From Caenorhabditis elegans (Eukaryota; Nematoda; Chromadorea; Rhabditida; Rhabditidae): a stretch of DNA of 64,000 nt. Where the stretch lies: positions 14,074,001 through 14,138,000 of the forward strand of contig NC_003283.11 of assembly GCF_000002985.6 (NCBI RefSeq), in the 5' to 3' direction. The number at the start of each line of letters is the position of its first letter. Position 1 is the stretch's first letter. The notes beneath the pieces are model-generated. The model did no database searches. It saw nothing but the letters and a program-made list of their open reading frames with translations, and was not told the DNA's origin. Both the position numbers and the translations under genes were made by a program. Of this stretch, positions 1-36,051 are shown piece by piece.

Positions 1-300
1 GAAATTTTTCGCCAAAAATTTAGTAAAATGACACAAAATTGAGTTATTTTGATGCTTAAGCAGACATACTGCACGGAACTTATTCAGAAACCAGATGAGT
101 GTTAAGAATTCAGTAGTTTTGGTGCTCCAAAAGACATCAAAAAGTATCAAATTTTTCCGAGTTTGTTAAGCACGGCAAATTTTGAGATTTGCCGCACACC
201 CCTGTCGTAGATACAATTAATGTCAGAAATTAAAAGCCAAGAGGACAAATCAAAACAACTTTTTAAGTGCCATGAACAATATGTATTATATTTTTCTCCC

Positions 301-545
301 TGTGTTCCCTTATCCTGAATATCAAATTTATTTTGTGAATCATTTCAATTCCACATCATCATATATAAACAAAATTGATTAAATTCGTATGTTTTTCAAT
401 CATGTATCAATATATAAACCCTTCTGAAATAGATCATATTCATCCTCAGATTTTACTTTTTTTCTGTTTCACTTTTCTGACCCCATTGTTCTAAAACTGT
501 TGGAAGACTGAATTTCGAAAAAAGTACGATTTGTTCGTAAAGTTC
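301..545 (+). repeat. Duplicated upstream segment, copy 1 (5' of gene A)
   Basis: About 240 bp ahead of gene A closely matches 5225-5500 ahead of gene B, including the stretches around CCTTATCCTGAATATC, CATTTCAATTCCACATCA and CATATATAAAC / AAACCCTTCTG. It contains TATATAAAC near 363. The match shows that promoter DNA was copied with the genes. Whether it is the active promoter is inferred. Confidence 0.7.
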
Positions 546-665
546 TGAACTTTCAAAGTGCGAAACTTGCTCGATTCAAGCGTTTAGATTTTCCGTTTCA
601 CAGTATTTTTAGATTTCTACTCAAACGAAAGGGAATTGAGTACACTACGTTTCGTCGTCATCAAA

Positions 666-2646
666 ATGATTTGGCAAGTTCTAATAACACTTGTGGTTCT
701 GTCTGCTACTGTCTACTCGGAGTCCCCATTGACACCAAGCAAAATTGAGGAATGCCAAAAAACATGTGGAGTACCTTTGGATATCAGAACTAATCCAGAT
801 GACACAAAGTGCAAAAAGTGGAACGTAAGTGGCGTCATGTGGTGTCAGGCTGTCCCAATACTCAACAGCACATAAAATGTCGGGAAAATATTTTTGAATT
901 TTTGTGACGTCACAGCGAATTTCGAATAAAAGCGTCGATTTTCGTTAAATTTTTTCATTATTCAATCAAAATTTTGTGGAAATTGACATGATTTGTCTTC
1001 AATCGCATGTTGTTTCATGTTTTCAACTGATTTTTCCACTTAACTTGCTGAATCTTTGAAATTTCTTGAAATTAATATCAATTTTATAAATTAACAGAAA
1101 CAAATATTTAAAGAGTGATACAAATCTCACAAAAACGCTTGAGTTTGAAAACAATTATTCGGGATTCGATGTGACGTCACAAAAATTCAAACATATTTTC
1201 CCGCAAATTTCAAAAAAAACCTGAAATTCACAATGTAGAGAAACCAAAAAATGAAATTTAAACATTTCTAATAGATTTTTTAAAAAATGTTGTTTTCTCT
1301 TAAAATAGGTCTTTTGAAGTTATTTTCAAAGGAAAATTAAGTTCAGTTAGAGTTGTTTGTCTAACAAGGAGCAACTAATTTCAAGGACCCAATTTCAAAA
1401 CTATATTAGCGGAAAAACTCTCAACATTATTATTATTCTTAAATTCTCGTCATAAGAAGGTTAACTTCAACAAATTTCAGAACTGCGACTATGATGACAG
1501 AAAATGTGCAGCGTTCGGAAATAATGAGGAATTGTTTACATACACGGATAATGTGTGTGAAACAAGCGATAAGAAGTATGAACAATTGTCAACAGTAGAA
1601 AAAAAAGAATGTATAACTGATTGTGGAGTTCCCAACAATATTATTGCAGATGCAGAGGCAAACTGTGCTAAATGGAAGGTAAGTTAATATCAAGTAAATG
1701 CTCTGAAACTTGTGTTAAATATGGTCACTTGCAAAAACTAAGATATCTTATATTATTTACTATACCGTATATCCTCTATTAGTTTTGCACCCCTTTGCTC
1801 AACTTTGGCAGCTCATATCTCAGTAGTCGTTTGTTCTAAAGAAAAGTTGTCAACTGATAATATATTTGTTAGATGTTTTTCTATAGTATATAGTTTGTTA
1901 ATCATTTATATGTTCAAAATAAAATGAGATATGAGCTGTCAAAGTTGAGCAAAGGGGTGCAAAACTAATAGAGGATATACGTATAGTTTTCTTTTCTCCG
2001 TTGTAGACTGTACCAAGATCCAAATTCACGTTAAATTGGAAATTTGACATAACCAAATTTCATAATTAACGGCCGGAAAAGTTTTCAGAATTTCAATTAT
2101 TATTGAATCTTTCGCAATAAGAAAATAAACTTCAACAAATTTCAGGTATGTAACAGAGATAAAAGAAACTGTGCAGCTGACAATAAGGGATTTTCTAACA
2201 TTGATTATATGTGTGGCGTAATTCCTCCGCCCACAATGTTACCAGATTATGTTAGTTGGTACAAGGCAAAATGTGGAATACCCAGTCAAATCATAAGAAA
2301 CCCCACTGAGAAGGTGTGCGAACATTGGAATGTAAGTTGCTGACGTAAAAATCAAGCACCGTTTTCCCAATGTTTTTGAAGCGATGAGACAGTACAAAAA
2401 CTTGTAAACTAACTGGAACTTGTAGTGAACAAAAAATCAGATTTATTGTTGTTTCAACTCTAAAAATCGCCCAAGATGCACGAAATGCCTATTCAGGCAA
2501 CTTTGTGGGTTTACATTTTGGTTAAAGACACTCAGGAAAATATAGATAATTTGAAACATTTTCAGGAGTGTTCAAACGACGAGAAAAAAACTGCCGCAAC
2601 AGGAGACAATGAATTATCAGACGCTAACGATGCGTGTAGAAAATAA
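666..2646 (+). CDS. Gene A: secreted protein with three six-cysteine CGVP/WN units
   Basis: Predicted exons are 666-824, 1481-1678, 2146-2331 and 2566-2646, all in phase 0, giving 207 aa. The start is the ATG of MIWQVLITLVV, which begins a clear signal peptide ending near VYS. A TTG-started extension upstream is not credible. Three repeats follow the pattern C-x3-C-G-[VI]-P-x3-I-x2-NP-x4-C-x2-W-[NK], then after the intron x-C-x4-[RK]-x-CA-A, then one more Cys. The last unit is degenerate after its intron (KTAATG). Each unit is cut by an intron at the same place, right after the W-N/K pair. This gene has neither the Thr-rich linker nor the C-terminal tail of genes B-D. AATAAA lies about 50 bp after the stop. 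The gene is probably extracellular. I do not recognise the family and assign no function. Confidence 0.75.
1761..1985. repeat. Palindromic MITE-like element in gene A intron 2
   Basis: The two ends form a long inverted repeat of about 60 bp per arm. The left arm starts TATACCGTATATCCTC, and the right arm is its near-perfect complement ending at TATACGTATA. There are only one or two mismatches and a short AT-rich centre. It carries no coding capacity and lies wholly within the intron 1679-2145. TA at the outer ends fits a Tc1/mariner-type target site, but I cannot name the family. Confidence 0.8.
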
Positions 2647-3166
2647 ATTTTGCTACTCGTAAATTGTTTCTTTACTTGCTGTGTTTTGCATTTTATCAAT
2701 AAACGCTTTGTTACCAGACCAACAATTCATGAAAAGTACTCTTCAAATTTTTTGAATAATACAAAGTTAAGTGGATTCTTCTGATCATCCCGTGTTAAAA
2801 AATCATAAACATAATCTTGAAGTTAGAAATGATTTCATACCTACTTTGAAGACACAACAATTAAAAAGTTTAAACAGATTATTTTTCTGGGTAATACAAA
2901 TTTTTCTGGTTTCTTCATTCATACTTTTGATCAAGTTTTTGGTATAAAAAATTGAAAAATTTTAGCCGCTTTCCTGGATCCCTCCGTTTTAAGCATCAAG
3001 ATTTGTTTTTATTCTCAGGCGTCAGAACCTTTCAAAACAGTTCGTCGATCCCGAAATACGCTGAGCTGGCAACAGGGATGTGCTGCCGACTAAACAGCTG
3101 TTTAACGAAATTGGGGTTTTTCGGCTGGTGAATATTTTTATAAAATTCGATAATTTTGAATAAATA
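2647..3166. other. Intergenic, gene A to mariner
   Basis: Apart from the gene A poly(A) signal near 2697, I see no gene, RNA or repeat that I can support here. Confidence 0.5.
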
Positions 3167-4405
3167 TTAGGTTGGTCCGGAAGTCTTTATAACTGGATTT
3201 GCTTTTCCACCGCTCGTCACAGTTGCATTTTGGTATTCCCTCGTTGCTAGTGAATAACAACAAGAGTAGGAACTTCATTGTAAGCAACACCTCATTCCCT
3301 TCCCTCTGGCCTGAAGTTAGTTAACCAACGATGTATGTCCCTAGTGCGATCCACATCCGATATGGTTTGATGTACGTCTTCCTCTCTCATACCACGATGA
3401 ACTATTCGGAAAGTCTCCTCAAGAATGTTTATGATTCACATGTCCCCTACTATAATATCATACGCAATTGGTTCCAAAGCTTCGAGAAGGACGACTTTTC
3501 TCTCGAAGACTCTGAGACCCCATAAATTGGATTTGGACACGTTGCAGAAAGCCATGGCAACGGATCCTTTCCAAACAACCCGTGAGCTGTCAACCACACT
3601 TGGGTCCTGTCAAACCAACATTATACGAGGCTGGGAACCTCTTGGAATAAAGAAACTTATGGGTCGATTCATACCTCACACCTTGAAACAGGCGAACCTT
3701 GATTTTTTAGTGGGTGATTCATTTTCCCTCCTTATTTTCCACGGGGCTGATCGATGGTTGGGCCGACTCATTACTGGTAACGAGAAGTGGGTCCTCTACG
3801 ATAACAACCACAAGCGTGCTCAGTGGATTGGAGAAGGAGAGACCCCACAGGATGCCGCCAAACCCGACCTTCACCCCAAAAAAGGCATGCTCTCAGTGTG
3901 GAGGGGAGTCTAGGGCCCTTTCTACTGGTAACTGCTACCTGAGGGCAAAATGATTAGTGGGGACATCTACGTTATCTAACCATGAAACCTGAAGAAAGTC
4001 ATCGATCGTTGACCCTTGAAGTACAAGCAACTCTATTTTCAGCAAAACAACGCTAGTCCCCATCTCTCGAAGCAAGTATAGTAGGAACAGACCAGCCATG
4101 AATGGATGGTTCTCCTTCACGCACCGTATTCTCCAGACCTCACTCCATCTGAATACTAGTCGTTTTCAAATATGACCCGTGTCCACGAGCGGAGAATCTT
4201 CAATACCCATAAAAGTGCCAATGTGGCACTCAAGCATTATTTCGACTCGCTCCCGGAAGGGTTCTGTTAGCAGGGCATTAATAAGTTGCCCACATGTAGA
4301 CAGTATATTGTTGATAATGATAGCGAATATAATTTATCCTATCGTTTCTCTTGCTTCGAGAAATAAACGATTGAAAAAGTTATAAAGACTTCCGGACCAA
4401 CCTAA
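3167..4405. mobile_element. mariner-family DNA transposon (decayed)
   Basis: The element is 1239 bp with perfect 28-bp terminal inverted repeats, starting TTAGGTTGGTCCGGAAGTCT at the left and complementary at the right. It is flanked by a TA duplication (3165-3166 and 4406-4407), the mariner/Tc1 target. Inside are fragments of a mariner transposase in more than one frame. Perfect ends with a broken gene suggest a copy that could once be moved in trans but makes no enzyme of its own. Confidence 0.95.
3331..4365 (+). pseudogene. mariner transposase pseudogene
   Basis: Recognisable pieces, in order, are: an N-terminal helix-turn-helix part ending NWFQSFEKDDFSLED; then in another frame DPFQTTRELSTTLG and the catalytic-domain stretch TGNEKWVLYDNN and KPDLHPKKGMLSVW; then, after a TAG at 3911-3913, QQNNASPH and YSPDLTPSEY. 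There is a frame change near 3520-3535 and a premature stop at 3911. In the second catalytic block the family's Asp (DNARPH-type motif) reads Asn (NNASPH), so even the intact-looking part lacks a D,D34D residue. Family knowledge: mariner transposases use three acidic residues and about 345 codons. Confidence 0.9.
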
Positions 4406-4407
4406 TA

Positions 4408-5224
4408 GTTACAATTTCGCCCAAAAAATAAGATCTGACTCCGAGAGCCGAAAATATTAGCCAGCCGCACATCCCAGCTTGGATCCTGCAATTCGCTTTC
4501 TGAAAGACGCGAAGAAATGAGTGGCTGCTTTGAAACCTGATGTGGCAGTTCTGAAAAAGTCTGAAAAGGTTATATCTAGGACCACAATTATGCGCATTAC
4601 TTTGAAGCGGCATAAACATGTTTTATTCTCCGAGAAAAGGTAAATAAACTCTTAAAATTTGAAAATATCACCTCTCAGCATTGATACAGATTGATTAATA
4701 TAATGCCTTGAGGTATCTTAACGAAATTTTCGCACCAGAACAATAGGAATTTACAAATGACTTTTAAAGCCTGCCGGTCATCAACGCAAGCAGAACCTTA
4801 GATGTCCCAGGGCTCCCAAACGTGTTATTGATAGAGCTCTAAATTAGTTTCTTGAAACATTTTCTGAATGTGCTATAATTAGCTTGTAATTGTCGCAAAA
4901 CGATAAAATAAAGCGATATTTTCGTCTATCGTTGTTTAATTGTCGCGGGCAACACTTTCGTGGACTAGCTCATTTCTTTGATTTGGAATCTGTTTAAATA
5001 TTTGTCAAAAAATTGTTTTTTCGTGGAAAAAAGTGGGAAAGTTAAATTAAAGAGCAGTAGTTTTGTCTCAAACAAATGATGTTCTCATTTTGTCGGTAGA
5101 GCACAGTTGAGCTTACGTAGTACATACTTATGTTTAATATTATATAATTTGTGGGAGAATTTGAGGAAAAAAATAACTTTTCAACAGAAAACATACTATT
5201 CCAAAGGTATATTCAACTTTTTCC
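4408..5224. other. Intergenic, mariner to gene B upstream duplication
   Basis: AT-rich sequence with only short chance reading frames. I see no supported gene or structured repeat. Confidence 0.5.
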
Positions 5225-5500
5225 CTTTTGTTCCCTTATCCTGAATATCAAATTTATGTTGTATATTTTGTCACCCATGAATCATTTCAATTCCACATCA
5301 TTATATATAAACAAAATTGATTAAATTCGTATGTTTTGCAATCATGTATCAATGTATAAACCCTTCTGGAATAAATCATATTCATATTCAGATTTTACTT
5401 TTTTCTTTCTCTTTTCTGTTCCCACCGTTCAAAAACTGTAGGAACACTGAATTTCTCGAAAAGTACGGTTTTCTCGTAAAACTCGAAAATTTTAAAGATT
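5225..5500 (+). repeat. Duplicated upstream segment, copy 2 (5' of gene B)
   Basis: Homologous to 301-545, with one insertion of about 20 bp near 5260 (GTATATTTTGTCACCC). It again carries TATATAAAC and the AAACCCTTCTG block, and lies further from its gene (ATG at 5851) than copy 1 does, because block 5590-5850 is interposed. Confidence 0.7.
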
Positions 5501-5589
5501 GAAACTTGCCTTATTTAAATATTTGGTGATTCGGTTTTAGAGGATATTTTGACAAAGTCCCCATTGAGGCCAAATTACCTTTCATATAT

Positions 5590-5850
5590 AAAAATAAAGT
5601 CTAAAAAAACATTCCATATTTGAAAGTTATGACCTCAATATACCAACAATCTGAAACATACAACTGCTCATATGGAATTCTCTCTCTGATGACCTCCTTT
5701 ACAACCTCCTTTTGTAATCAATCATATCTCTCTTTCAAAAATTTCAAGTTAGGAAAATTTTGTTCGAGGAACAAAGCAATATGATCCCTATCAATTTCAG
5801 ATTTGTATTCAAACGAAAGGGAATTCATACTACATTTCTTTGTCTTCAAA
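5590..5850 (+). promoter_or_regulatory. Proximal upstream block shared by genes B, C and D (copy B)
   Basis: Shares the stretch around ACATTCCATATTTGAAAGT, CAACAATCTG, CTTTTGTAATCAA and the CTTTCAA...TTTCAA...TTAGGAAAA region with 8540-8808 (gene C), and its 3' part with 10140-10299 (gene D). It abuts the start codon. Co-duplication with the genes points to promoter and 5' UTR. The functional role is inferred. Confidence 0.55.
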
Positions 5851-7590
5851 ATGATTTGGTCAATTCTAATTACACTCATGGTTCCATCTGTTGTTCTCGC
5901 AAGACCGCCCAATTGCGCTAATATAGTTTTTGATAAATGTGGACAGCACGACGCCATTAGAACTAACCCAAATGAGCAAACTTGCGAAACTTGGAACGTA
6001 AGTTGCATTCGTTAAAATCAAGTCATGCCTCACACGATGTTCTGAAATATCTACTAAATATAGAAACTTGTTAAAACAAAAAACCTTCGTCATAAAATAT
6101 ATTATTTCTAGAGAGCTCCAAATAATTAGAATGCAAAAACTGTCATTTATGAAATTTTAATAGCCGCAAAATCGTTGGAATTAGAAAAGGAAACATTCCA
6201 AATTGATTGTTTTCACTGTGTTATCTTCAAATTGTTGAATTAAGGTGTTCTTCAAAAGAAAATTAAGTTCAACAGGAGTTTTTTAAAAGACACCGTTTAT
6301 GACAATTTTGCTCTAAAAATTGCAAATGATCAGAAACAACCAAATTTCAAAACTAGACTACCGGAAAAAATATCCTGTTGTGAAATTCTCGCATCAAAAA
6401 ATTCAAACTAACAAATTTCAGAAATGTGACGATGATCAAAAACGCTGTGTCGACAAGACAAAAGAAGTTATTTACACTGACCAAATATGTTACCAATTTT
6501 GGACACCGTCTAGGGATTATATTACATGGTGCCAATCAGCATGTGGAATACCCCATGTACTCGCAAGTAATCCCACTGAAGAAGTGTGTGAAAAATGGAA
6601 TGTAAGTTGCGGACGTTAAACTCAAACCCCTGTTTTTACAATGTTCTGGAAACGCTGGCAAAACATGGAAATTAAAAATTGTAATATTTTGTTTCCAAAC
6701 AAACTCAGATTTTTTTAAATCTAAAAGGATCGAAATATTTATAATGCAAAAACTGCTTTTCAGTAAATTGAATTTTGAATTCTGAATTTGCCGAATCAGT
6801 GTTAAAATATTAGATACTCAGATGTTAGAGATGACCTCATTACCAAGCTTAAAGATAATCATTGGACTAAAATAGACCACATCTCAAAGTCTCAATGTGT
6901 ATTTTTTTTGAATTGTTGAGAAAAATGATATCTAACAAACATTTCAGAAATGTGACGATGTCAAAAGACAATGTGCCGCAGCAGGAGGAAATTACTACGC
7001 AGGCGCTAACTTTCAGTGTAGCAAATACACACCTGCACCCACGGTAACTTCTACCACAGTTGTCGACACATCTGAGAGCAGTACTTCGCAATCTACCACC
7101 ACTCCAAGTACAACCACAACCATCATTGTTTCGTCTACTACCACAACAAACCCAACTACCTCCACAACCCCCACAACCCCCACAACCACAACCCCCACAA
7201 CCTCCACAACCACAACAGCGCGCGGAACCACTGATATTCCCGCACCTCCATCAGTTGTGGAAAAATGGTGCATGAAAAAATTACAAAAAAACAATGCACA
7301 ATTTACTATTGATTTTATCGAGGAAGCCGAAAGTGACGAGGTGAGAGTTTTAATAAATGCATGACAAATTCAAAATGAATTGACGTTCAGGGTACGAATG
7401 CGGAACTATGTATATACCTTAATCGCGCAGGTTTCAAGTTGAGGTTGGAAGATTTAACAGAGTATTGTGGAAAGCAGCAATCAGATGCATTTAAGGAGGT
7501 AAACTTAAACAATAAGTGTTCCACATTTTTCATTATTTTCAGTATGTGGAGAACCGGAAAAGAAATCGAAACTGCGACTTATACCGTTAA
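5851..7590 (+). CDS. Gene B: secreted protein, two six-Cys units, Thr-rich linker, four-Cys tail
   Basis: Predicted exons are 5851-5997, 6422-6601, 6948-7340, 7391-7498 and 7543-7590, all phase 0, giving 291 aa. The signal peptide starts MIWSILITLMV and ends near VVLA. Two CGxx...NP...C..WN units follow, the first somewhat divergent (CGQHDAI), each split by an intron directly after WN. Exon 3 then encodes a low-complexity Thr/Pro/Ser stretch of about 75 residues (TTPTTPTTTT), expected to be heavily O-glycosylated. It leads into the tail: APPSVVEKWCMKKLQ, NNAQFTIDFIEEAE, LCIYLNR, LEDLTEYCGKQQSDAFKEY and a final NCDLYR. The tail has four Cys over three exons. AATAAA lies near 7746. This is the most complete architecture in the cluster. 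The protein is probably extracellular and its function is unknown. Confidence 0.78.
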
Positions 7591-8539
7591 GAATAACCTT
7601 CTTTTTGATTTTGACACGCTATCAATAAATGCAGTTTCCGCACTGTGATCAGTCCTCATAAGGCTTATTTTGGAACACTGAACACGTGCTGCTTCTCTCT
7701 AACTCTTAAATTTTGTCTTTACTTGCTCTGTTTTGCATTCTATCAATAAATGCTTTGCAAACCAAACCAATTGTTATGTGCAGAACGAGGAGAAGAATTT
7801 TCTTACATTACTAAACTAGGTATATTTTTTCTTTCATATTTTCTTTCATTAAATTGCAACCTTTTTTGTATTTTAAAGTTTATTGACGTATTGAATTAGT
7901 AATGTTTTATTCTAACTAGGAAACTGTCAGAATGTGCCCAGTGGAGTATGAGATCTATGTTTTGGAAACATTTAAGAAACGGTAATCTGTGGATTTTTAG
8001 CTGCAAAACTTCAGAACAAAGATAACGGCGCGCTCTTAAAAATGCACTGTCAATTTTCAGAAATTTTCTAAAAATTGTTTTTTGGCAATTGACCCTTCCG
8101 TGCATCTCCAAAGTGCTATCGTCGATTGCGCGCCGTGAGTTTTGTTCTAAAGTCTTACAGATAACCGTTTCTAAACATGGTCTATCAAATAAATTAAGTC
8201 TCCTATGCTACTCCGATGAGCACCTCGTGACAGTTCCCTTGTGAGCCTGAAGGAAAGAAGTGTTAAAATGAACATTTTCGTATAAATTATAATTGAAACA
8301 TTGAGCAGTATAAACATTTTTTTTTAGTGGCGGTGTTGAAAATTACATGTACCCTAAACCGCGATTGACATTGTTAAAGATGGTTGAAAAATTGCGGCAA
8401 GTTGCCGAGGAGCCGAGATAATACCAGAGTTATCAAAGAATCAATAATTACCTCTACAGTAACACGACTTATGAATTGTCTCGGATAATTGAATAGACCG
8501 CGTTGAACTTTTCTTAGAAAATATACGGTATGTGTAGCT
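7591..8539. other. Intergenic, genes B to C
   Basis: Contains the gene B poly(A) signal. I see nothing else I can support. Reading frames on both strands are short and lack family similarity. Confidence 0.5.
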
Positions 8540-8808
8540 GAAAATAAAGCATAAAACAACATTCCATATTTGAAAGTGACAACACTGCAATATGTCAACA
8601 ATCTGTTACATACTATGACTCAATATGGAAACCTCCTCTACAATCTTTTATAATCAACATTTCTATCTTTCAACACTTTCAATTTAGAAAAGTTATGTTC
8701 AAAAGAACAAAAGAAGAACTATTTCTTTTGAGCAATACGATATTAGTTTCAGATTTGTATTTAAACGAGAGTTGGGAATTGAGAACACCACAGTTCGTCG
8801 TCTTCAAA
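8540..8808 (+). promoter_or_regulatory. Proximal upstream block (copy C)
   Basis: Paralogous to 5590-5850: ACATTCCATATTTGAAAGTG, TCAACAATCTG, CCTCCTCTACAATC, then GAACAAAAGAAGAA close to the start (also present ahead of gene D). The end TTCGTCGTCTTCAAA before the ATG matches the TTCGTCGTCATCAAA before gene A. Confidence 0.55.
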
Positions 8809-9486
8809 ATGATTTGGCAATTTCTAACCACACTTTTGGTTCTATCTGCTACGCCCACACTCTCATTTACAACTGCGCCCACTGGCACTTCTCCCACAGT
8901 TGATACATCAGCTGTGATTGCACCAAACCCGGAGAGCAGCCCTTCACAATCAACTGACTCACCAAGTACAGCATCATCAACAGCGACAGAACAAAGTACT
9001 ATTCAGACAGTACCGATTACTTCCATCACAGAAAAAATTATTACAGTATTCACGCCAAGTACTTCTGAACCAACAAGTACTACTACAACAGCACCCGGAA
9101 CTACTGAACTTCCATTTGAATGGAATGTTACCGCACCTCCATCAGTTGTGTCCAAATGGTGCATGATAAAATTACAAAAAAACAATGCACAATTTACTAT
9201 TGATTTTATTGAGAATGCCGAAGAGCCATATGAAGAGGTGAGAGTTTAAATTTTTAAAAATTAACAAATTCAAAAGTACTTTCAGGCTGTTGAAGAGACT
9301 CTATGTGTGCAACTCAATCGCAAATCTTTCGAGACAAGGCTGGAAGATTTGACAAACTATTGTGGACAACGGGAATCAGATGCCTTTAAGGAGGTAAACT
9401 TGAACAATAAGTGTTTATAAACTTTTTATTCTTTTCAGTATGTCGCCAACCGGAGAAAGATTCACCACTGCGATCAGTACCTGTAA
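8809..9486 (+). CDS. Gene C: secreted protein with Thr/Ser linker and four-Cys tail, no CGVP unit
   Basis: Predicted exons are 8809-9237, 9286-9393 and 9439-9486, phase 0, giving 194 aa. I chose the ATG of MIWQFLTTLLV because it matches the signal peptides of A, B and D. An in-frame ATG at 8695 would bury the signal. Directly after the signal peptide comes a Ser/Thr/Pro-rich stretch of about 100 residues with little resemblance in detail to that of gene B. Then comes the conserved tail: APPSVVSKWCMIKLQ, NNAQFTIDFIENAE, LCVQLNRK, RLEDLTNYCGQRESDAFKEY and HCDQYL. Tail exon lengths (108 and 48 nt) are identical to B and D. The six-Cys units are missing altogether, as if the exons between signal peptide and linker had been deleted. 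Confidence 0.75.
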
Positions 9487-10139
9487 TGCTTTTTTTGTAA
9501 TATTGAACACACTTTATTTTAGCTCTTGAATGCTGTCTTAATGAACATTGTTTTTCATTTTATCAATAAATGCTTTGCGAACCGAACTAAAAATTAATGA
9601 AGCACATGCTAAAACATTTCGAGCAATACAAAACGCTAACATCTGTGTTGTATTGAAAAAAAATTCGTAGAATGGACTGAATTTCCACTACATTTCTCAT
9701 CAAATCATCAAAAAAACACGGTGTTTTCTTGTGGTCATTTTTCGTACATTAGAGTGTTCAATAAGTTTTGTTTTTGTGAATTTTTTTTTGATTACACATA
9801 GTAATAAAAACTTGTAAATATCGGCCTACTCAGGTAACTTACAGACTGCACGATCTACCTTCGAGTGGTCGAGAAGAAATTTAAATTTATATTTATATTG
9901 AATTTTTTGGTTTTAGGTTCGAAATTTTTTTTTGGTTTCTTCCTTAAATCTTAAAATTATATATTGTATTTATTCTTACCACTGTTGCATACAATGCACA
10001 TTTGGAATTTTTTCCCTTAATCATAAGCTCACAAACACAAAACATAATTGATTGAACTAATATGTTTTCCACTTTCTGAAATAAATCATATTCATTTTCT
10101 TATATTATTATTTTCTCATACTATCTTCTTTCTGCTTTT
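9487..10139. other. Intergenic, genes C to D
   Basis: The gene C poly(A) signal AATAAA lies near 9565. The rest is AT-rich with no gene I can support. Confidence 0.5.
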
Positions 10140-10299
10140 TCTACAGCCTTCTTTTGTAATCAAGAATTTGTCGCTTTCAAAACTTTAAGTTGTTGTCTAA
10201 GAGAACAAAAGAAGAATGATTTCTTTAGAGCAACATGATTTTTATTAGTTTTCAATTTGTATTTAAACAATGCCTGTTAGTGAAGAACACAACACCGAT
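10140..10299 (+). promoter_or_regulatory. Proximal upstream block (copy D)
   Basis: Shares CTTCTTTTGTAATCAA, GAGAACAAAAGAAGAA and TTTGTATTTAAAC with the upstream blocks of genes B and C, ending just before the gene D start. Confidence 0.5.
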
Positions 10300-11384
10300 A
10301 TGATTTGGCATGTTCTAACTATCCTCGTGGTTCTATCTGTTACTGTCTATTCGGCACCCACGTCAACGTTCAATTTGTCACCGATTGATATTGCAAAATG
10401 TCAAAATAAATGTGGCGTACCCAAAGATGTCAGAAGTAATCCTACTCAAAAACTCTGCAATGCCTGGAATGTAAGTTGCTGTCGTAAAAACATTTCGTAC
10501 CTCACAGAATTTTGAAACGTGAGGTGAATTGTGGAATTTTGTCATTTAAACATTTGTATTCTCAAACGTACATAGTCGCTAATAAAAAACATTGTTCTAT
10601 CATTTGAATTTGGCCAAGACTTGCAGACTTTCTTTAAAACAAAAAAACCAATTTCTTAAAAGCAGCCCATTTTTACCACCAAATGAAATGAAAACACTTA
10701 ATTGTAAGGGGAGTGATGTTCGCGAGATTTTTATTCTGAAAAATTGAACAAGACTTTGAAAGAGCTACTTTCAGACTTAGACTGACTTTTTTTGAATTTC
10801 CGCAAAAAAGTATTTCATGAAAATTTCAGGAATGTAACGATGATGAAAGAAATTGCGCCGCCAAAGGAGATAAATTCATTTATTCAACTAACGCTGTTTG
10901 TAAAACATTTGCTCCGTTTCCAAGTCCAGCTTCCTCAATTAATACCAATACAGGGCTAAGTGTTAACTCGATAACAGCCATAACCACTGAGCCTCTTGGC
11001 TCAACAGTTGATTTCAGTGCTACCCCACCTCCGTCAGTTGTGACCGAAGAGTGCAAGACAATATTACAACAAAAGGACGCAATTCTGATGATTAATCTAA
11101 TTAATCCAGTCGAATGGGACATGGTGAGAGTTTTATCAGTCTATGAACTGAATGGAAATTCAAAAGCTAACTTACCTTCAGCCAATTGATATGATTTTAT
11201 GTATCAATCTCAATGCTAAAACTATTCCGTTGGGGTTGGAAGATTTAGCAACACTTTGTGGACAGCAGCAATCAGATGATTTGAGAGGGGTAACAATAAA
11301 CTAAATATTCTACAAGAATGTTTTATTTGTTTTCAGTACATCGATAACCGAAGAAAGATTCATCACTGTGATCAGTACCCATAA
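10300..11384 (+). CDS. Gene D: secreted protein, one six-Cys unit, linker, four-Cys tail
   Basis: Predicted exons are 10300-10470, 10830-11123, 11182-11289 and 11337-11384, phase 0, giving 206 aa. MIWHVLTILVV is the signal peptide. An ATG at 10270 adds ten polar residues and is less likely. One unit, KCQNKCGVPKDVRSNPTQKL then C..WN, is split by the intron after WN and resumed as ECNDDERNCAAKG and AVCKT. The linker is short and less Thr-rich than in B or C. The tail is divergent: PPSVVTEECKTILQQ, LCINLN, LEDLATLCGQQQSDDL and HCDQYP. The WC of the B/C tail has become EC. The last two exons keep the 108 and 48 nt lengths of B and C. Confidence 0.75.
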
Positions 11385-18882: not shown

Positions 18883-19813
18883 ATGAAATCTATTATCATT
18901 TTATCAGTTTTCTTAGTTTGTTCCGCGTTGGCTGCCAGTTCTGATAAGGATACTGAATCAAAAGTGGCCAGATATTTGAAATCCTGTGGAGTTATCACTT
19001 CATTGAAGACTACTAAATGTGTTAAGGTGGGTTTTATAAAATTGTTCAAGCAGGCTTCAATTGTCATGATTGCTCATGCAGTTCTTATTTTGGTGGAATT
19101 TCAAACATGGAGATTTATCACAGTAGTCCTTTTTTGTTGTACTTGCTGCATTTCGAACTATTTCCGTCATTTTAATAAAAAAAACACTTTTAGAGAAGCG
19201 ATGAAGTAGATAAGGAGCTCAAAGCTCTCGTAAAGAGCAAAGACAAGGATCTCTCAAAAGTCAAGGCTTCGTGCAAAGACACCATGGTGGGTAACATCAG
19301 TGATATTAAAAACTTCTCAAATGTGTTTCAGGAATGCATTAAAGAGCTGAAATGTAAACCACTCGAAGAAGATCACAAGGAGACTCTCGACTTCTGTGGT
19401 CGTGCTCTTTTCCAGGACGAGTTCAAGGATTGCAGCAAGAAATTGCAGGCATTGAAGAAAAGTGATAAGGATGCTGCAAAGTGTTTGGAAGATTTTAAAT
19501 CAGAGACAAAGAAGTCGACAAAGGACACTTGCACATTTTTGAAGGGCTCGAAAGATTGTATCAAGGCTCATATTAAGAAAGAGTGCGGGGATGATAAGTT
19601 GCAGGGATGGCAGAAGGTAAGCGGATGATGTCTTAGAAATCGGTTTAGGCTTCGGCGCAGGCCTTAAACTTAGATGCTTAGGCTTAGGCTTAGAGAGCCT
19701 CAAACTTTCATTTTCATTTCCACCAACTTTTCTAAATTTCTATTTTTCAGTTTGCTCAAGACTCGTTCAAAGAGAACGAATGCGAGAAGGCAATTGGAGC
19801 AAAATGGAACTAA
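18883..19813 (+). CDS. Gene I: lysine-rich secreted DUF19 protein
   Basis: Predicted exons are 18883-19026, 19194-19286, 19332-19616 and 19751-19813, phase 0, giving 194 aa. The signal peptide is MKSIIILSVFLVCSALA. The mature protein is very rich in Lys and Asp/Glu and carries the family's cysteines (SCGV, KCVK, SCKD, ECIKELKCKP, FCGR, DCSKK, KCLED, TCTFL, DCIKAH, ECGD, ECEK). Codon choice is markedly G/C-ending (AAG, GAG, CTC) compared with the neighbours, as in highly expressed worm genes. A TATA box at 18835 supports the start. Intron 3 contains TTAGGC telomere-like units. Confidence 0.75.
19643..19697 (+). repeat. Interstitial telomere-like TTAGGC units
   Basis: TTAGGC at about 19645, and TTAGGCTTAGGCTTAG near 19678-19693, with degenerate units between. 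They lie in intron 3 of gene I. TTAGGC is the C. elegans telomere repeat. Confidence 0.8.
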
Positions 19814-24629: not shown

Positions 24630-24909
24630 AACTGAGTCGAGTGTTTTCAAAAATAGTTTTGAAAATTTGAAAACATTTTGAGAAAAGGTGGGGGAGTTGG
24701 GTCATTTCACATGACAAAAGATGACAGCTGACAAAATAATATTAGAACAAAGTTTTGTTGTTTGTTTCTCGGAAAAATATTGAGAGAAGAAATTGAGAAC
24801 AGTTGTACCTGAAAAAAAAAGAAAAAAGAAATGACAAAAAAAGAGGGAAACAACAACAAAACAGCGAAGGAAGAAGAGACAATTATTTTCACTTTCAATT
24901 TTCGGAAAG

Positions 24910-26289
24910 ATGAATCTTCTTATATTTTTGACTATTCTCCCATTTTTGCTCTTTCTATCAAAAGCTGAAAATTCTCCACTTGATTGCTCAAAAGATGATC
25001 TTCAACTTACTGTAACATGTCGTCCAAAACTTGCAAAACTCACAGATGAAATGAAGAAGAATCCATTGAATTCTGGTTTTCCATCTGTTGAAACATTGAA
25101 TAAAATGTCAGGATATTGCAAGGAAGCCATGAGTTGTGTTAGTCCAGCCAAGTGTCCGGCAATCACTGAAAAAATGAGCAAATTTGCCACAATGTGCAAG
25201 ACCATCGACTTCATGTCTGGACCGTATGCTCAATGTGCAGCAAAGGTGCGCTAGAATTTACAGAAATTGCAATTTAAAAATAAAGTAGCTCTACTCCGTA
25301 AAATATCTCAAAAATTTAATTTGTTTGATTTTTTCAACCCTTTTTCAGTTTTTTGAAATGCCAAGTTACTACTCAACATTCCCGTCCCATTTTAGAGTAT
25401 TTTCACAACATTTATTATTGTGCTAGTCTGCAGAAAGAAAGCATTTCATAAGTCAAAATTTCCAAAGTTCGATAAACCTGTTTTCAAAATTTAACTCAAG
25501 TAAACATTTATTTCAAATTTTAGGCAAACTGGACGTCGCTAGATTTTCGAAACATACCACAAAAAATCTCGATTTTTCTATAAATCATTTTTAGAATAAC
25601 TAAGTGACAGAATCATATTAAACCGGGTTCAATAATTATTAGTTTTTTAAAATGTATATTTTTGTCATAACTATTCGAGGTAGCTACCTCATTTGTGTTA
25701 AAAACTGGAATATTTCGTAGAATTTTGAAAAAATTTTGCCTTATTCGATACAAAATTAAATAATTATTCAAAAAAAAACCTCTTGGAAATGTCAAATTGA
25801 AAAGTTAAAATTTAGTAAGAGTTAAAGAAAAACCAGTAACTTCATTGAACTCTACATTTGATTTTCGACTAAAAATTGTTCTGTAGTTTTAAATGTTCAA
25901 TAGTTTCAAAAAAGTCATGTACAACTATTTAAAAATAAATTAAATTACTGAAATTTCAGCCACTTGATAATTTTATTCATTTCAGCTGAAAGCAAGCAAC
26001 GACAAAACAGAGTGTGTTCAATGGTATTTCAGTGACAAATCAAGAGTAAGATATTCCAGCTTTTACTGTGTTATAAAATTAAACAAATTCAGATGTCAAC
26101 CGATCAAAAATGTGCTCAATTCAAAGCTAAAAAGCAATGTATTGAAAAAGATTTTGGAAAGGCGTGTGGAGATTCCACGTTGAAAAGTTTCCGCGAGGTA
26201 GTTTTAGTGTGGATTTTTGAAAATTGAAAAATGAATAAATTTAGAATATCAACTACGTCTCAAAGTTTGCTGGATGCCCTGTTCACTGA
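24910..26289 (+). CDS. Gene L: secreted DUF19 (T20D4.11-like) protein
   Basis: Predicted exons are 24910-25245, 25986-26045, 26093-26197 and 26245-26289, phase 0, giving 181 aa. The signal peptide MNLLIFLTILPFLLFLSKA is strong. Exon 1 holds most of the domain: DCSKDDLQLTVTCRPKL, MSGYCKEAMSCVSPAKC, MCKTIDFM and GPYAQC, the canonical DUF19 spacing. Later exons add ECVQWY, KCAQFKAKKQC, ACGDSTL and GCPVH. It is the most typical family member in the window. It is divergently placed from gene K and may share its promoter region. Confidence 0.82.
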
Positions 26290-28646: not shown

Positions 28647-30192
28647 GTTTGAAACTCTACTTTTTTTTAAATTTGTTCAAAACAACAAGTACAACTCCAA
28701 AATTACATGTAGCTGGTAGAGCCAGAATATCAACAAAAAAAGAAAATTTGATTGTATATAATGCAAATTTTCACAGTATTTGAATGTGTTCGAATATAAA
28801 TAAAAATTAATTCAGATGAGTTCAATGAACAAGAAATCAAGAAACTTTCATCTTTTTAAACTTTACTTTTTTAGAATTACATTTTTGGAAGCACGATGCT
28901 ACCTACTCCGTCTAATCTCTCTGATGGAATTGTCTCCAAATAGAAATTTCAGATTAATCAGTGTGTAGCACTAATTTATAGTAAATATCATTTTCATCGA
29001 AATGATCTAGAGTAATTTTTGAACTGTTTACTGTCTTTGAAAATTGATAGGTTTTAATCTTGTTTTCAAATATGTGGGCAATGCAGAGAATGCAAAAAAA
29101 CTTGTTCTCATTCGTATTTTCTTGAAACTACTGAAAATTACCAGTTTTCATTTATAAATTATAACGAAAACAAAACAAAAAGTACTCAGAATGTGTCACA
29201 AACAACTGCAGAAGATTTGTTTGATTGTTAGTACAAAACCATGAAGCTGCTGAAAATTTTTTTTAAAGCTTGAACTGGAAAACATAATAATCATCAATTT
29301 TCTAAGAAAGTTTTAGAATACATATCAGTTTATATGCAAATTTTTGGTTTTATTCTTGAGTGAAACATTCAATTTTTATTATAATTACTTTTCAGGCAAT
29401 TTCTTTCTTATTGTCCCAAATGTATAAATGTTTAAAAACTTTTTCATACAAATAGCTAGTAAAGTTTCTAGTTTTACAGTTATAATAGATTGAAACATTT
29501 GTGAAAAACACGATGCCGGATATAATTATGGCAGGCGTTCGGAAAATTCGCAAGTATATATAAGCTCCACTAAGTATATGTAGTGTTATTTGAAATTCTC
29601 AGCGTTCTACTCACATTGTGAATAAACCTGAACTGCCAACAACCACATTTCATTCTGATTCGTTATCTCTATATTGTTTTGTTGTGATCACTGAACACGA
29701 AAGACACACCGATCCATTTCATTTTCAAGTAAACAAATGTCTGATAGACTATACTATCGGGCATACAATAGAAACCTGTACCCAACCTTCACAACATATG
29801 TGCAGGTTTGAATTCGATGAATTGTTGTTTCCATATGAGATTTTTAGATATAACTAATAAACAAGAGAGCGTAGAGAGTAAGCGGTCAAAAAACCTTTAT
29901 CAGATCCGGCGATCAACTAGTTCTTGACAGTAAACAATGTGATGGACCGCACAAAGCATTTACATCATCCGAAACGATTCTGCAGAGACGCCTGGGGAAG
30001 ACGGAGAACTTGGCGAGTTTCCCATTTTTTGATGAAAACAAAACAAAACGGGCGTCAAGAGTACACGGAGAATATTGATCACTGTAATCCATAATTCCAA
30101 CCTTGATCGTTACCCTCTTTTCTTGTTGATGTAAATTTTATTAGAATAACAACAGAAAAACACGAAAATCCCGACTTCTGAAATAATAAGAT
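28647..30192. other. Intergenic, genes M to N
   Basis: About 1.5 kb of AT-rich sequence. A TCTGATAAA (minus strand, about 29896-29904) is a GATA-type site of the kind used by intestinal factors, 370 bp before gene N. Its relevance is inferred. The 79-codon frame at 29618 has no signal peptide or family pattern. Confidence 0.45.
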
Positions 30193-30235
30193 GTTACCGC
30201 CCTAATGAAAGGAGTGAAAGATTTCGGTATATAAG
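30193..30235 (+). promoter_or_regulatory. Core promoter of gene N
   Basis: TATATAAG at 30228-30235, 34 bp before the start codon. Upstream, GTTACCGCCC (30193-30202) is matched by GTTGCCGCCC before gene O. ATCTTCAG ends about 10 bp before the ATG and could be an initiator or a trans-splice acceptor. Confidence 0.65.
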
Positions 30236-30269
30236 ATCGTCTGAAACTACTGGAATCTTCAGTCCAACA

Positions 30270-32330
30270 ATGAAGTTGTTGGTTTATTCCTTCTTTTTCC
30301 TTGCCGTCTTGGCTGTCTTCTCTCATGCCAAATCTGTTGGTCAACGTCTTCGTAGAGATGTAGAAGCCGACAAAGGACACATTTCTGGAGCTGATCAACA
30401 CCGAGGATCTCGAGCTGCTGGAGATAAACCATCGCAATTGAGTCAGCCAGACGGTGAAAACCCAAAACGTCCAGAAAGAGCCGCTGACAACTCACACAAA
30501 GGATCCCTTGATGCTGATACTGATATTAAGCGCCCAGCAAGAGCTGCCGGGCAGAAAGAAACTCAACAAGCTGATCAAGAGCAACATCGCGGATCCCGAG
30601 CTGCTGGAGAGAAGGGAACTCAACACTTTGACGGACGTAATACAAGAGCTGCCGGAGAGAAAGGAACTCAACAAGCTGATCAAGAATCGCAACGTCCAGC
30701 CAGAGCCGCTGACAACTCACACAAAGGATCCCTTGACGCTGATGCTGATATGAAACGACCAGCCAGAGCTGCCGGCCAAAAAGGAACTCAACAAGCTGAT
30801 CAAGAGCAACACCGTGGATCCCGATCTGCCGGACAGAAGGGAACTCAACACTTTGACGGACGTAATACAAGAGCTGCCGGAGAGAAAGGAACTCAACAAG
30901 CTGATCAAGAATCGCAACGTCCAGCTAGAGCCGCTGACAACTCACACAAAGGATCCTTTGACGCTGATGCTGATATGAAACGACCAGCCAGAGCTGCCGG
31001 CCAAAAAAGAACTCAACAAGCTGATCAAGAGCAACACCGTGGATCCCGAGCTGCCGGACAGAAGGGAACTCAACAAGCTGATCAAGAGCAACACCGTGGA
31101 TCCCGATCTGCCGGACAGAAGGGAACTCAACAACTTGATCAAGAATCAAAGCGTCCAGCAAGAGCTGCCGACAATTCCCACAAAGGATCCCTTGACGCTG
31201 ATGCTGATATGAAACGACCAGCCAGAGCTGCCGGCCAAAAAGGAACTCAACAAGCTGATCAAGAGCAACACCGTGGATCCCGAGCTGCCGGAGAGAAGGG
31301 AACTCAACAAGCTGATCAAGAGCAACACCGTGGATCCCGAGCTGCCGGACAGAAGGGAACTCAACAAGCTGATCAAGAGCAACACCGTGGATCCCGAGCT
31401 GCCGGAGAGAAGGGAACTCAACAAGCTGATCAAGAGCAACACCGTGGATCCCGAGCTGCCGGACAGAAGGGAACTCAACAACTTGATCAAGAGCGACACC
31501 GTGGATCCCGAGCTGCCGGACAGAAGGGAACTCAACAAGCTGATCAAGAGCAACACCGTGGATCCCGAGCTGCCGGACAGAAGGGAACTCAACAACTTGA
31601 TCAAGAATCAAAGCGTCCAGCAAGAGCTGCCGACAATTCCCACAAAGGATCCCTTGACGCTGATGCTGATATGAAACGACCAGCCAGAGCTGCCGGCCAA
31701 AAAGGAACTCAACAAGCTGATCAAGAGCAACACCGTGGATCTCGAGCTGCCGGAGAGAAGGGAACTCAACAACTTGATCAAGAGCGACACCGTGGATCCC
31801 GAGCTGCCGGAGAGAAGGGAACTCAACAAGCTGATCAAGAGCAACACCGTGGATCCCGAGCTGCCGGACAGAAGGGAACTCAACAAGCTGATCAAGAGCA
31901 ACACCGTGGATCCCGAGCTGCCGGACAGAAGGGAACTCAACAACTTGATCAAGAATCAAAGCGTCCAGCAAGAGCTGCCGACAATTCCCACAAAGGATCC
32001 CTTGATGCTGATGCCGATATCAAACGACCAGCAAGAGGTGCCGCAGACATTTCTCAACATGGATCAGTTCATACCGAGGTGAAACGTCCAGCTAGAGATG
32101 CCGGCCAAAAAGGAACCCAGCAATTCGGAGGAGACCATCACCGCGAATCCAGAGCTGCCGGCCAAAAAGGAACTCAACAAGCTGATCAAGAACAACACCG
32201 TGGATCCCGATCTGCCGGCCAGAAGGGGACTGGACAAGCTGATGTTGAACCAAAGCCTGTGAAGCGAGCTGCCGGGGAAAAAGGATCTCAACATGCTGAG
32301 ATCGACCCAATGTTCCACCCACAGATGTAA
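30270..32330 (+). CDS. Gene N: secreted repetitive protein with R-x-x-R sites
   Basis: A single exon of 686 aa. After the signal peptide MKLLVYSFFFLAVLAVFSHA comes GQRLRRDVEADKG (a furin-type RLRR), then nearly the whole protein is repeats. The common unit is 19 residues, RAAG[QE]KGTQQADQEQHRGS (57 bp). About six longer units, RPARAADNSHKGSLDADADM, are interspersed. Each unit carries R-G-S-R-A or R-P-A-R-A, an R-x-x-R motif, as in precursors cut into many small peptides. There is no cysteine in the repeats. The composition predicts disorder. Codon use is G/C-ending and uniform. AATAAA lies near 32465. It is probably secreted in quantity. Whether it is cut into peptides or is a structural or mucus protein is undecided. 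No homologous family is recognised. Confidence 0.85.
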   Translation: MKLLVYSFFFLAVLAVFSHAKSVGQRLRRDVEADKGHISGADQHRGSRAAGDKPSQLSQPDGENPKRPERAADNSHKGSLDADTDIKRPARAAGQKETQQADQEQHRGSRAAGEKGTQHFDGRNTRAAGEKGTQQADQESQRPARAADNSHKGSLDADADMKRPARAAGQKGTQQADQEQHRGSRSAGQKGTQHFDGRNTRAAGEKGTQQADQESQRPARAADNSHKGSFDADADMKRPARAAGQKRTQQADQEQHRGSRAAGQKGTQQADQEQHRGSRSAGQKGTQQLDQESKRPARAADNSHKGSLDADADMKRPARAAGQKGTQQADQEQHRGSRAAGEKGTQQADQEQHRGSRAAGQKGTQQADQEQHRGSRAAGEKGTQQADQEQHRGSRAAGQKGTQQLDQERHRGSRAAGQKGTQQADQEQHRGSRAAGQKGTQQLDQESKRPARAADNSHKGSLDADADMKRPARAAGQKGTQQADQEQHRGSRAAGEKGTQQLDQERHRGSRAAGEKGTQQADQEQHRGSRAAGQKGTQQADQEQHRGSRAAGQKGTQQLDQESKRPARAADNSHKGSLDADADIKRPARGAADISQHGSVHTEVKRPARDAGQKGTQQFGGDHHRESRAAGQKGTQQADQEQHRGSRSAGQKGTGQADVEPKPVKRAAGEKGSQHAEIDPMFHPQM

Positions 32331-33745: not shown

Positions 33746-33777
33746 GTTGCCGCCCATCATCATAGATACTATATAAG
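33746..33777 (+). promoter_or_regulatory. Core promoter of gene O
   Basis: TATATAAG at 33770-33777, 33 bp before the start codon, preceded by GTTGCCGCCC (33746-33755). The arrangement repeats that of gene N. Confidence 0.65.
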
Positions 33778-33810
33778 AAAAGTAATACAGTTGCAACAAT
33801 CAGTTTCAAG

Positions 33811-36051
33811 ATGAAGTTGTTCTTGTGTTCCCTCCTTCTATTCGCCGCTTTGTCGGTCACTGTTCAAGGATTCCCTACAAAAGATCGTGAGGCCAGAGAG
33901 ACTGAACCAGTGAAACTGCCAACTGCTGATTCCGAGAAGAAGGCCCCAACCAAGAGAGAAGCTGATCCACCAAAGACTGAATCTGCTGATTCCGAGAAGA
34001 AGGCCCCAACCAAGAGAGAATCTGATAAGCCAAAGACTGAATCTGCTGATTCCGAGAAAAATGCCCCAGCCAAGAGAGAAGCTGATAAGCCAAAGACTGA
34101 ATCTGCTGATTCCGAGAAAAAGGCCCCAGCCAAGAGAGAAGCTGATAAGCCAAAGACTGAATCTGCTGATTCCGAGAAGAAGGCCCCAGCCAAGAGAGAA
34201 GCTGATAAGCCAAAGACTGAATCTGCTGATTCTGAGAAGAAGGCCCCAGCCAAGAGAGAATCTGATAAGCCAAAGACTGAATCTGCTGATTCCGAGAAAA
34301 ATGCCCCAGCCAAGAGAGAAGCTGATAAGCCAAAGACTGAATCTGCTGATTCCGAGAAAAAGGCCCCAGCCAAGAGAGAAGCTGATAAGCCAAAGACTGA
34401 ATCTGCTGATTCCGAGAAGAAGGCCCCAGCCAAGAGAGAAGCTGATAAGCCAAAGACTGAATCTGCTGATTCTGAGAAGAAGGCCCCAGCCAAGAGAGAA
34501 TCTGATAAGCCAAAGACTGAATCTGCTGATTCTGAGAAGAAGGCCCCAGTCAAGAGAGAAGCTGATAAGCCAAAGACTGAATCTGCTGATTCTGAGAAGA
34601 AGGCCCCAGCCAAGAGAGAATCTGATAAGCCAAAGACTGAATCTGCTGATTCTGAGAAGAAGGCCCCAGTCAAGAGAGAAGCTGATAAGCCAAAGACTGA
34701 ATCTGCTGATTCCGAGAAGAAGGCCCCAGCCAAGAGAGAATCTGATAAGCCAAAGACTGAATCTGCTGATTCTGAGAAGAAGGCCCCAGTCAAGAGAGAA
34801 GCTGATAAGCCAAAGACTGAATCTGCTGATTCCGAGAAGAAGGCCCCAACCAAGAGAGAAGCTGATCCACCAAAGACTGAATCTGCTGATTCCGAGAAGA
34901 AGGCCCCAGCCAAGAGAGAAGCTGATAAGCCAAAGACTGAATCTGCTGATTCCGAGAAGAAGGCTTCAGCCAAGAGAGAAGCTGATAAGCCAAAGACTGA
35001 ATCTGCTGATTCTGAGAAGAAGGCCCCAGTCAAGAGAGAAGCTGATAAGCCAAAGACTGAATCTGCTGATTCTGAGAAGAAGGCCCCAGTCAAGAGAGAA
35101 GCTGATCCGCCAAAGACTGAATCTGCTGATTCCGAGAAGAAGGCCCCAACCAAGAGAGAAGCTGATCCACCAAAGACTGAATCTGCTGATTCCGAGAAGA
35201 AGGCCCCAGCCAAGAGAGAAGCTGATCCACCAAAGACTGAATCTGCTGATTCCGAGAAGAAGGCCCCAGCCAAGAGAGAAGCTGATCCGCCAAAGACTGA
35301 ATCTGCTGATTCCGAGAAGAAGGCCCCAGCCAAGAGAGAAGCTGATCCACCAAAGACTGAATCTGCTGATTCTGAGAAGAAGGCCCCAGTCAAGAGAGAA
35401 GCTGATAAGCCAAAGACTGAATCTGCTGATTCCGAGAAGAAGGCCCCAGCCAAGAGAGAAGCTGATCCACCAAAGACTGAATCTGCTGATTCCGAGAAAA
35501 ATGCCCCAGCCAAGAGAGAAGCTGATAAGCCAAAGACTGAATCTGCTGATTCCGAGAAGAAGGCCCCAGCCAAGAGAGAAGCTGATCCACCAAAGACTGA
35601 ATCTGCTGATTCCGAGAAGAAGGCCCCAGCCAAGAGAGAAGCTGATCCGCCAAAGACTGAATCTGCTGATTCCGAGAAGAAGGCCCCAGCCAAGAGAGAA
35701 GCTGATCCACCAAAGACTGAATCTGCTGATTCTGAGAAGAAGGCCCCAGTCAAGAGAGAAGCTGATAAGCCAAAGACTGAATCTGCTGATTCCGAGAAGA
35801 AGGCCCCAGCCAAGAGAGAAGCTGATCCACCAAAGACTGAATCTGCTGATTCCGAGAAAAATGCCCCAGCCAAGAGAGAAGCTGATAAGCCAAAGACTGA
35901 ATCTGCTGATTCCGAGAAGAAGGCTTCAGCCAAGAGAGAAGCTGATCCACCAAAGACTGAATCTGCTGATTCTGAGAAGAAGGCCCCAGTCAAGAGAGAA
36001 GCTGATAAGCCAAAGACTGAATCTGCTGACAAGGTTCCACTACCACATTAA
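33811..36051 (+). CDS. Gene O: secreted protein of about 35 identical-length 20-aa repeats with Lys-Arg sites
   Basis: A single exon of 746 aa. The signal peptide is MKLFLCSLLLFAALSVTVQG. A short unique start (FPTKDREARETEP) is followed by about 35 tandem units of exactly 60 bp, typically EADKPKTESADSEKKAPAKR, then a short end KVPLPH. Variation is limited: A/S after the first E, KP or PP, K or N, and A/V/T in AP[AVT]KR. Every unit has one Lys-Arg pair followed by Glu, the classic prohormone dibasic site. The protein has no Cys, is extremely charged and must be disordered. Larger duplications are visible (240 bp and 360 bp). AATAAA lies near 36091. The shared promoter and first codons link it to gene N. 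Function is unknown. A multi-peptide precursor and a structural secreted protein are both possible. Confidence 0.85.
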   Translation: MKLFLCSLLLFAALSVTVQGFPTKDREARETEPVKLPTADSEKKAPTKREADPPKTESADSEKKAPTKRESDKPKTESADSEKNAPAKREADKPKTESADSEKKAPAKREADKPKTESADSEKKAPAKREADKPKTESADSEKKAPAKRESDKPKTESADSEKNAPAKREADKPKTESADSEKKAPAKREADKPKTESADSEKKAPAKREADKPKTESADSEKKAPAKRESDKPKTESADSEKKAPVKREADKPKTESADSEKKAPAKRESDKPKTESADSEKKAPVKREADKPKTESADSEKKAPAKRESDKPKTESADSEKKAPVKREADKPKTESADSEKKAPTKREADPPKTESADSEKKAPAKREADKPKTESADSEKKASAKREADKPKTESADSEKKAPVKREADKPKTESADSEKKAPVKREADPPKTESADSEKKAPTKREADPPKTESADSEKKAPAKREADPPKTESADSEKKAPAKREADPPKTESADSEKKAPAKREADPPKTESADSEKKAPVKREADKPKTESADSEKKAPAKREADPPKTESADSEKNAPAKREADKPKTESADSEKKAPAKREADPPKTESADSEKKAPAKREADPPKTESADSEKKAPAKREADPPKTESADSEKKAPVKREADKPKTESADSEKKAPAKREADPPKTESADSEKNAPAKREADKPKTESADSEKKASAKREADPPKTESADSEKKAPVKREADKPKTESADKVPLPH

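Follow-up and report, generated by a model that had tools for sequence, protein, structure and literature searches.

Genes of the tandem array and the repeated unit

The window analyzed here is a stretch of 64,000 nucleotides from chromosome V of Caenorhabditis elegans (assembly GCF_000002985.6, contig NC_003283.11, positions 14,074,001 to 14,138,000 of the forward strand). All coordinates refer to the window unless the chromosome or another stretch is specified. Four genes, designated A to D, are arranged in tandem on the plus strand. Gene A (666-2646) encodes 207 amino acids in exons 666-824, 1481-1678, 2146-2331 and 2566-2646. Gene B (5851-7590) encodes 291 amino acids in exons 5851-5997, 6422-6601, 6948-7340, 7391-7498 and 7543-7590. 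The shorter gene C (8809-9486; 194 amino acids) consists of exons 8809-9237, 9286-9393 and 9439-9486, and gene D (10300-11384; 206 amino acids) of exons 10300-10470, 10830-11123, 11182-11289 and 11337-11384. A preliminary description of this DNA had proposed a four-gene tandem family, and the four genes read as described at these coordinates, with GT-AG introns and open frames. As modelled, they are well supported by splice sites, reading frame and paralogy.

All four predicted proteins begin with MIW and display an N-terminal hydrophobic stretch (best 11-residue mean 1.9-2.8). Their putative signal peptides, like that of the distant member E described below, whose N-terminus is likewise hydrophobic, were judged by hydrophobicity; the later hydrophobic segments of all five proteins are weak (best 19-residue mean of 1.1 or less, Kyte-Doolittle). 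The remaining sequence is assembled from three kinds of part: a unit rich in cysteine and roughly 60 residues long, a linker and a tail. Gene A carries three units with neither linker nor tail. Gene B carries two units, a Thr/Ser-rich linker and the tail, and gene D one unit, a short linker and the tail. In gene C, which has no unit, the signal peptide is joined directly to the linker within a single exon, and the tail follows. The linkers measure 75 (B), 92 (C) and 43 (D) residues, with Ser and Thr together accounting for 64, 45 and 35%, respectively. B, C and D therefore combine a signal-peptide-like start with a Ser/Thr-rich stretch, as mucin-like proteins do, while A and E have no linker. 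The tail common to B, C and D comprises 84-86 residues with four cysteines, and the tails of C and D are 67% and 42% identical to that of B. Its reported presence in these three genes and absence from A were confirmed by six-frame profile scans of the window, which detected neither remnants of a linker or tail behind A nor relic units between A and B.

The unit counts initially given (three, two, none and one in A to D) were borne out by a profile built each time without the gene being tested. The scores obtained are 62, 24 and 65 bits for A1 to A3, 46 and 74 bits for B1 and B2, 74 bits for D1, and 61 and 62 bits for the two units of gene E. The best scores reached in 999 shuffles each of the A, B, D and E proteins are 4.8-11.5 bits, and the best among 6221 reversed open reading frames, taken from the window and six fetched stretches, is 10.4 bits. 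Six-frame scans of the window revealed no additional unit or tail with an E-value better than 0.25 beyond the known units and the three tails.

The consensus of the unit had to be revised. Its first half was originally written with the spacer P-x(7-8)-NP, which matches none of the eight units (six in the window and two in gene E); the true spacer is P-x5-NP, and the motif corrected in this way matches A1, B2 and D1. Looser parts are far more widespread: CG[VI]P is found in seven of the eight units, and both C-x2-W and W[NK]-x-C-x4-[RK] in all of them. The second half as first written, C-x4-R-x-C-A following W[NK]-x, is exact in four of the eight. In B2 and D1 the cysteines are spaced x3-x14-x5-x6-x14, and the other units come close to this. 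The initial designation as six-cysteine units does not extend to A3, which has four cysteines and lacks C1 and C5, nor to E2, which lacks the first cysteine; in B1 the first cysteine is displaced. Because C1 and C5 are lost together in A3, we propose that they form a pair, as this joint loss suggests.

Distant members and surrounding DNA

The queries for the genome searches were A, E, the tail of D, and the unit part and tail of B; only the best candidates were scored, one exon at a time, so that diverged members may be missed. The family recovered lies on chromosome V and has six members: A to D, the broken gene Z immediately left of the window, and gene E at a distance of 2.8 Mb. Gene E (chromosome V 16915501-16916161, minus strand) is open, with GT-AG introns, and encodes 153 amino acids in three exons, with two units and no tail. 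Another weak match at chromosome V 15414563 (E 6.1) was rejected, as neither unit nor tail is present in the surrounding 8 kb.

Gene Z (chromosome V 14071646-14073799, corresponding to 7646-9799 of the fetched stretch L021) starts 2.35 kb left of the window; the array thus begins at chromosome V 14071646, outside the window, and not at 666. The first half-unit of Z is clear (profile E 4e-8), the profiles match the second half-unit and the tail weakly (E 0.2 and about 1, respectively), and the DNA behind the insert described below is 64% identical over 242 columns to the tail region of D (E 3e-15). The signal peptide has lost its hydrophobic core (best 11-residue mean 0.35), the tail is shortened and the linker is interrupted by a mariner-like element. 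Another copy of this element, which does not belong to the gene family, occupies 3167-4405 on the plus strand between A and B, with TA at both ends. The copy in Z (L021 8185-9423) is inverted and 99.8% identical to it over 1,244 aligned positions, the two being about 3.7 kb apart. In the window copy, the longest open frame present has 170 amino acids and matches positions 1-36 of the 80 of Transposase_1; it is from this match and from the form of the terminal repeats that we take the element to be mariner-like. At least 59 matches to the window copy were obtained in the genome, terminal-repeat matches included, and among those listed 22 others exceed 1 kb at 66-96% identity. The two near-identical inverted copies, one of them inside a gene, indicate that the element moved recently.

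The genes resemble each other beyond their coding parts. The 5' flank of A (284-613, plus strand) is 78% identical over 346 columns to that of B (5210-5552, plus strand), and a genome search with 284-480 produced matches at these two flanks only. Nearer the start, the 5' flanks of B, C, D and Z are mutually alike (58-75%). At the other end, a region of A (2655-2732, plus strand) is common to B (7702-7770, 86%) and C (9523-9600, 72%), with a longer and weaker match to E (63%); the 3' ends of A, B, C and E are mutually alike, and that of D resembles those of C and E. Such likeness suggests that the genes were copied together with their flanking DNA, and the members of the family may be expressed alike. 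WGATAR sites within 800 bases upstream number four in Z, none in A, one in B, six in C, two in D and one in E, counts from which no argument for a common gut-GATA promoter signal can be made.

Over 59 columns, the segment 2984-3042 in the 3' flank of A also resembles the 5' flank of E (E 1.5e-5) and is possibly a relic of the start of another member; a genome search with the 5' flank of E matched only itself and not this segment. Elsewhere in the window, two long repetitive open frames (30150-32330 and 33766-36051), with units around AAGQKGTQQADQEQHRGSR and TESADSEKKAPAKREADKPK, display a hydrophobic, signal-peptide-like stretch near their start. A protein kinase frame near 49 kb on the minus strand presumably corresponds to PAR-1, which it resembles.

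Exon structure and unit number

All introns are in phase 0 (12 of 12 in A to D and both introns of E), and one intron cuts each unit at the same place, in its middle, between W[NK] and the following x-C. The internal unit exons, i.e. exons 2 and 3 of A, exon 2 of B and exon 2 of E, each finish one unit (its second half) and begin the following one (its first half), and they are flanked by phase-0 introns. In A, the exon at 1481-1678 links A1 to A2 and the one at 2146-2331 links A2 to A3; in B, the exon at 6422-6601 links B1 to B2 (all plus strand, phase 0). The exons whose number differs between genes are therefore symmetrical, with equal intron phase on both sides, and since each is made of two complementary halves, duplicating or deleting one of them shifts the count by exactly one whole unit in frame.

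Likeness at the DNA level extends from these exons into the adjacent introns. The third exon of A with its flanking introns (2033-2447) is 65% identical over 423 columns to the corresponding segment of B (6317-6715; E 1e-37). Within A, the starts of exons 2 and 3 and the ends of the preceding introns (1377-1559 and 2041-2215) are 68% identical over 185 columns (E 2e-18); within B, exons 1 and 2 are 62% identical over 213 columns in segments that join their ends to the starts of the following introns (5961-6161 and 6565-6773; E 7e-13). The gain of an exon in A is half supported by these comparisons: the acceptor half of exon 2 resembles exon 3, whereas its donor half, which encodes the first half of the 24-bit unit A2, has diverged, its best DNA matches being to B and D at E 0.001-0.005. 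The divergence of this half is the reason why exon 2 of A is not called a plain copy of a neighbor. As all units share descent, likeness between exons does not by itself date or prove any given event.

Changes in module number appear to come from whole exons being gained or lost in frame. Unequal crossing-over could produce tandem gain or loss of a single exon, which would leave one whole unit more or less, in frame. Gene C would have arisen by a deletion of the stretch between the signal peptide and the linker; no trace of the proposed join was found in the DNA of C, and no match between B and C spans the start of the linker. In a tree of the eight units, the last units A3, B2 and E2 cluster with a support of 0.97, the other nodes being supported at 0.53-0.87. 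The simplest history would start from a two-unit ancestor of B and E, with A gaining one unit and D and Z losing one or never gaining it. Two units were probably already present before B and E separated, and the direction of each change in this scheme is a putative one.

A different process may have affected B and C, which are nearly identical where the linker exon ends. In these two genes, the linker end together with the first part of the tail (B 7234-7340, C 9125-9237) is far more alike than the remaining tail, with a B-C pS of 0.11 in the first tail part versus 0.46 in the second. The longest run of B-C identity covers 15 of the 160 sites that vary among the three genes B, C and D; a run of this length was attained in 9 of 20000 shuffles, a procedure that ignores local constraint. 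Gene conversion between B and C is likely, with selection on the exon of the linker end as a possible alternative.

Constraint, possible role and comparison with known families

Nucleotide changes were evaluated as pooled pN/pS on hand-aligned blocks, in which the pairs are non-independent and dS is near saturation for many of them. The values are 0.34/0.55 for half-unit 1 (24 codons, seven sequences, A2 being left out for a gap), 0.33/0.67 for half-unit 2 (11 codons, eight sequences) and 0.24/0.54 for tail part 2 (three sequences). They are 0.23/0.28 for tail part 1 (three sequences) and 0.37/0.46 for the signal peptide (five sequences), which denotes little constraint. pN is below pS in all five blocks, clearly so in the two half-units and tail part 2. 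Single pairs with a ratio above 1 occur in the signal peptide (three, all involving B) and in half-unit 2 (two, both involving A2). This pattern supports a coding function of the units and tail, with weak constraint elsewhere. The family had been called quickly reshuffled: unit number and linker length do vary and one copy is broken, but the units and tail themselves are mostly constrained at the protein level.

The modular, tandem and probably secreted nature of the family is supported by the gene models, the unit profiles, the DNA likeness within the array and the hydrophobic N-termini. The proteins would leave the cell; the linker of B, C and D would be O-glycosylated and keep the units and the tail apart, and unit number would set valency in an extracellular layer or fluid such as the gut lumen, the cuticle surface or a secreted coat. 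An extracellular, glycosylated and multivalent protein is likely on these grounds; it is possibly coat-like or immune, and a role in defence can be envisaged. As a base rate, a survey of C. elegans reports that 1,297 of 3,484 putative secreted proteins rise in one or more of the five infections considered (PMC3534327). The explanation as a whole, namely a modular secreted family whose units change exon by exon and act through extracellular valency, appears to us reasonably probable.

A host- or environment-facing role for A to D was put forward from the outset, and it is one that we also infer. The proteins might instead be internal extracellular or reproductive ones (eggshell, uterine, seminal or cuticle matrix), unit number varying under weak constraint on a structural filler. 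Little constraint on the signal peptide and on tail part 1 is in keeping with such proteins, as is the stage- or sex-specific nature of many C. elegans secreted proteins in the available part of the same survey (PMC3534327). An environment-facing role is somewhat more likely, and we regard the internal one as an unlikely though serious alternative.

The preliminary description knew no named family with the pattern of the unit, which is sustained within Pfam-A and the PDB sequences, where no Pfam match is shown to reach its curated cut-off. Whole A and whole B have no match in Pfam-A at cut-off. The six window units and three tails, submitted one by one, display weak scattered matches, each in one or two members (best E 0.0036), and none is shown at cut-off, the cut-offs being printed for the first member alone and the HMMER filters dropping most matches above about 0.1. 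Several candidates were taken as chance: for the tail, IpaB_EvcA (best E 0.0036, one of three tails); for the unit, profile matches to tau in the PDB (best E 0.0011, 22 bits, confined to the 18 profile positions 6-23, no stretch passing alone); and antibody light chains, also in the PDB, as matches of the exon module (E 0.64 and worse). The Pfam matches of gene B to Sporozoite_P67 (E 0.00099) and DUF4842 (E 0.0075) are below cut-off and fall mainly on the Thr-rich linker. Against PDB sequences, the tail profile gave a best E of 0.3 and gene A alone gave no match.

It is doubtful that the unit belongs, in strongly diverged form, to a known small disulfide fold, such as ShK, a TSP1-like domain or another nematode cysteine module. 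With so small a number of sequences behind them, the profiles are insensitive, and one of the six window units has a weak match to TSP1_CCN (E 0.018, 15.7 bits for a cut-off of 27). Against this reading, the PDB profile matches look like chance and no match of the single window units and tails is shown to reach a cut-off. Furthermore, the ShK profile is matched neither by whole A or B nor by any of the six window units, ShK being absent from the five families matched by any unit at E of 10 or less (with the filter effect above about 0.1 already mentioned). The ShK cysteine spacing ends in C-x3-C-x2-C, which is unlike the spacing of B2 and D1 and the similar spacing of the other units. The converse proposal, a new disulfide fold confined to Caenorhabditis whose units are gained and lost by half-plus-half exon exchange under microbial selection, with counts that differ between natural isolates, is improbable in this full form.

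The least probable reading is that of an array mostly in decay, in which A, C and the broken Z would be remnants, with function retained in B, D or E alone. It draws on the damage to Z (signal peptide core, linker insertion and shortened tail), on the cysteines missing from A3, and on a gene A devoid of tail and a gene C devoid of units; it is opposed by the open frames and GT-AG introns of A, B, C, D and E and by a pN below pS in units and tail, and the joint loss of C1 and C5 would be tolerable if these two do pair.

The preferred reading of secreted proteins with exon-wise unit change adds to the best-studied nematode a small family for which the Pfam copy searched so far has no model and whose exons follow a clear logic by which modules can be added or removed; in this animal, expression, tagging, knock-out and natural variation are all cheap to test. 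The advance is modest: the family is new and its kind familiar, and ordinary gene-family evolution accounts for it, leaving the general picture unchanged. No paper recognizable as describing the family was found in a literature search made without gene names, which is thus weak evidence that the family is undescribed, and the genes may well be listed elsewhere as unnamed ones. Small nematode-specific secreted families with no recognized domain, as reported in the C. elegans secretome survey (PMC3534327), are comparable in being small, signal-peptide-bearing and Pfam-less; the present family is not recognizable in the available part of that survey, gene names being unmatched.

DUF19 (PF01579) is likewise a nematode family of unknown function, but it differs from A to D in that none of the six window units, three tails and two whole proteins (A and B) matches it above the gathering score. 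Two open frames matching DUF19 are located downstream of the array (19194-19625 and 24835-25251). In a Schistosoma japonicum family (PMC3434034), as far as the accessible part of the paper describes it, what links the genes is likeness of the core promoter and of the signal sequence, and repetitive elements lie close by, as in the array; that family belongs to a flatworm and arose by dispersed duplication, whereas A to D form a local tandem array with phase-0 exons, the comparison being one of descriptions. The closest architectural parallel found is provided by the TES-120 mucins of Toxocara canis (MUC-1 to MUC-5), which the portion of the source available presents as secreted surface-coat proteins with a Ser/Thr-rich core and tandem six-cysteine ShKT modules, varying in number, at one or both ends (PMC3611597). 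Secretion, a mucin core and a varying number of six-cysteine modules would be shared with the present family. The TES-120 modules are ShKT, whereas the six window units have no ShK match and another cysteine spacing; the parallel is accordingly one of architecture and not of membership.
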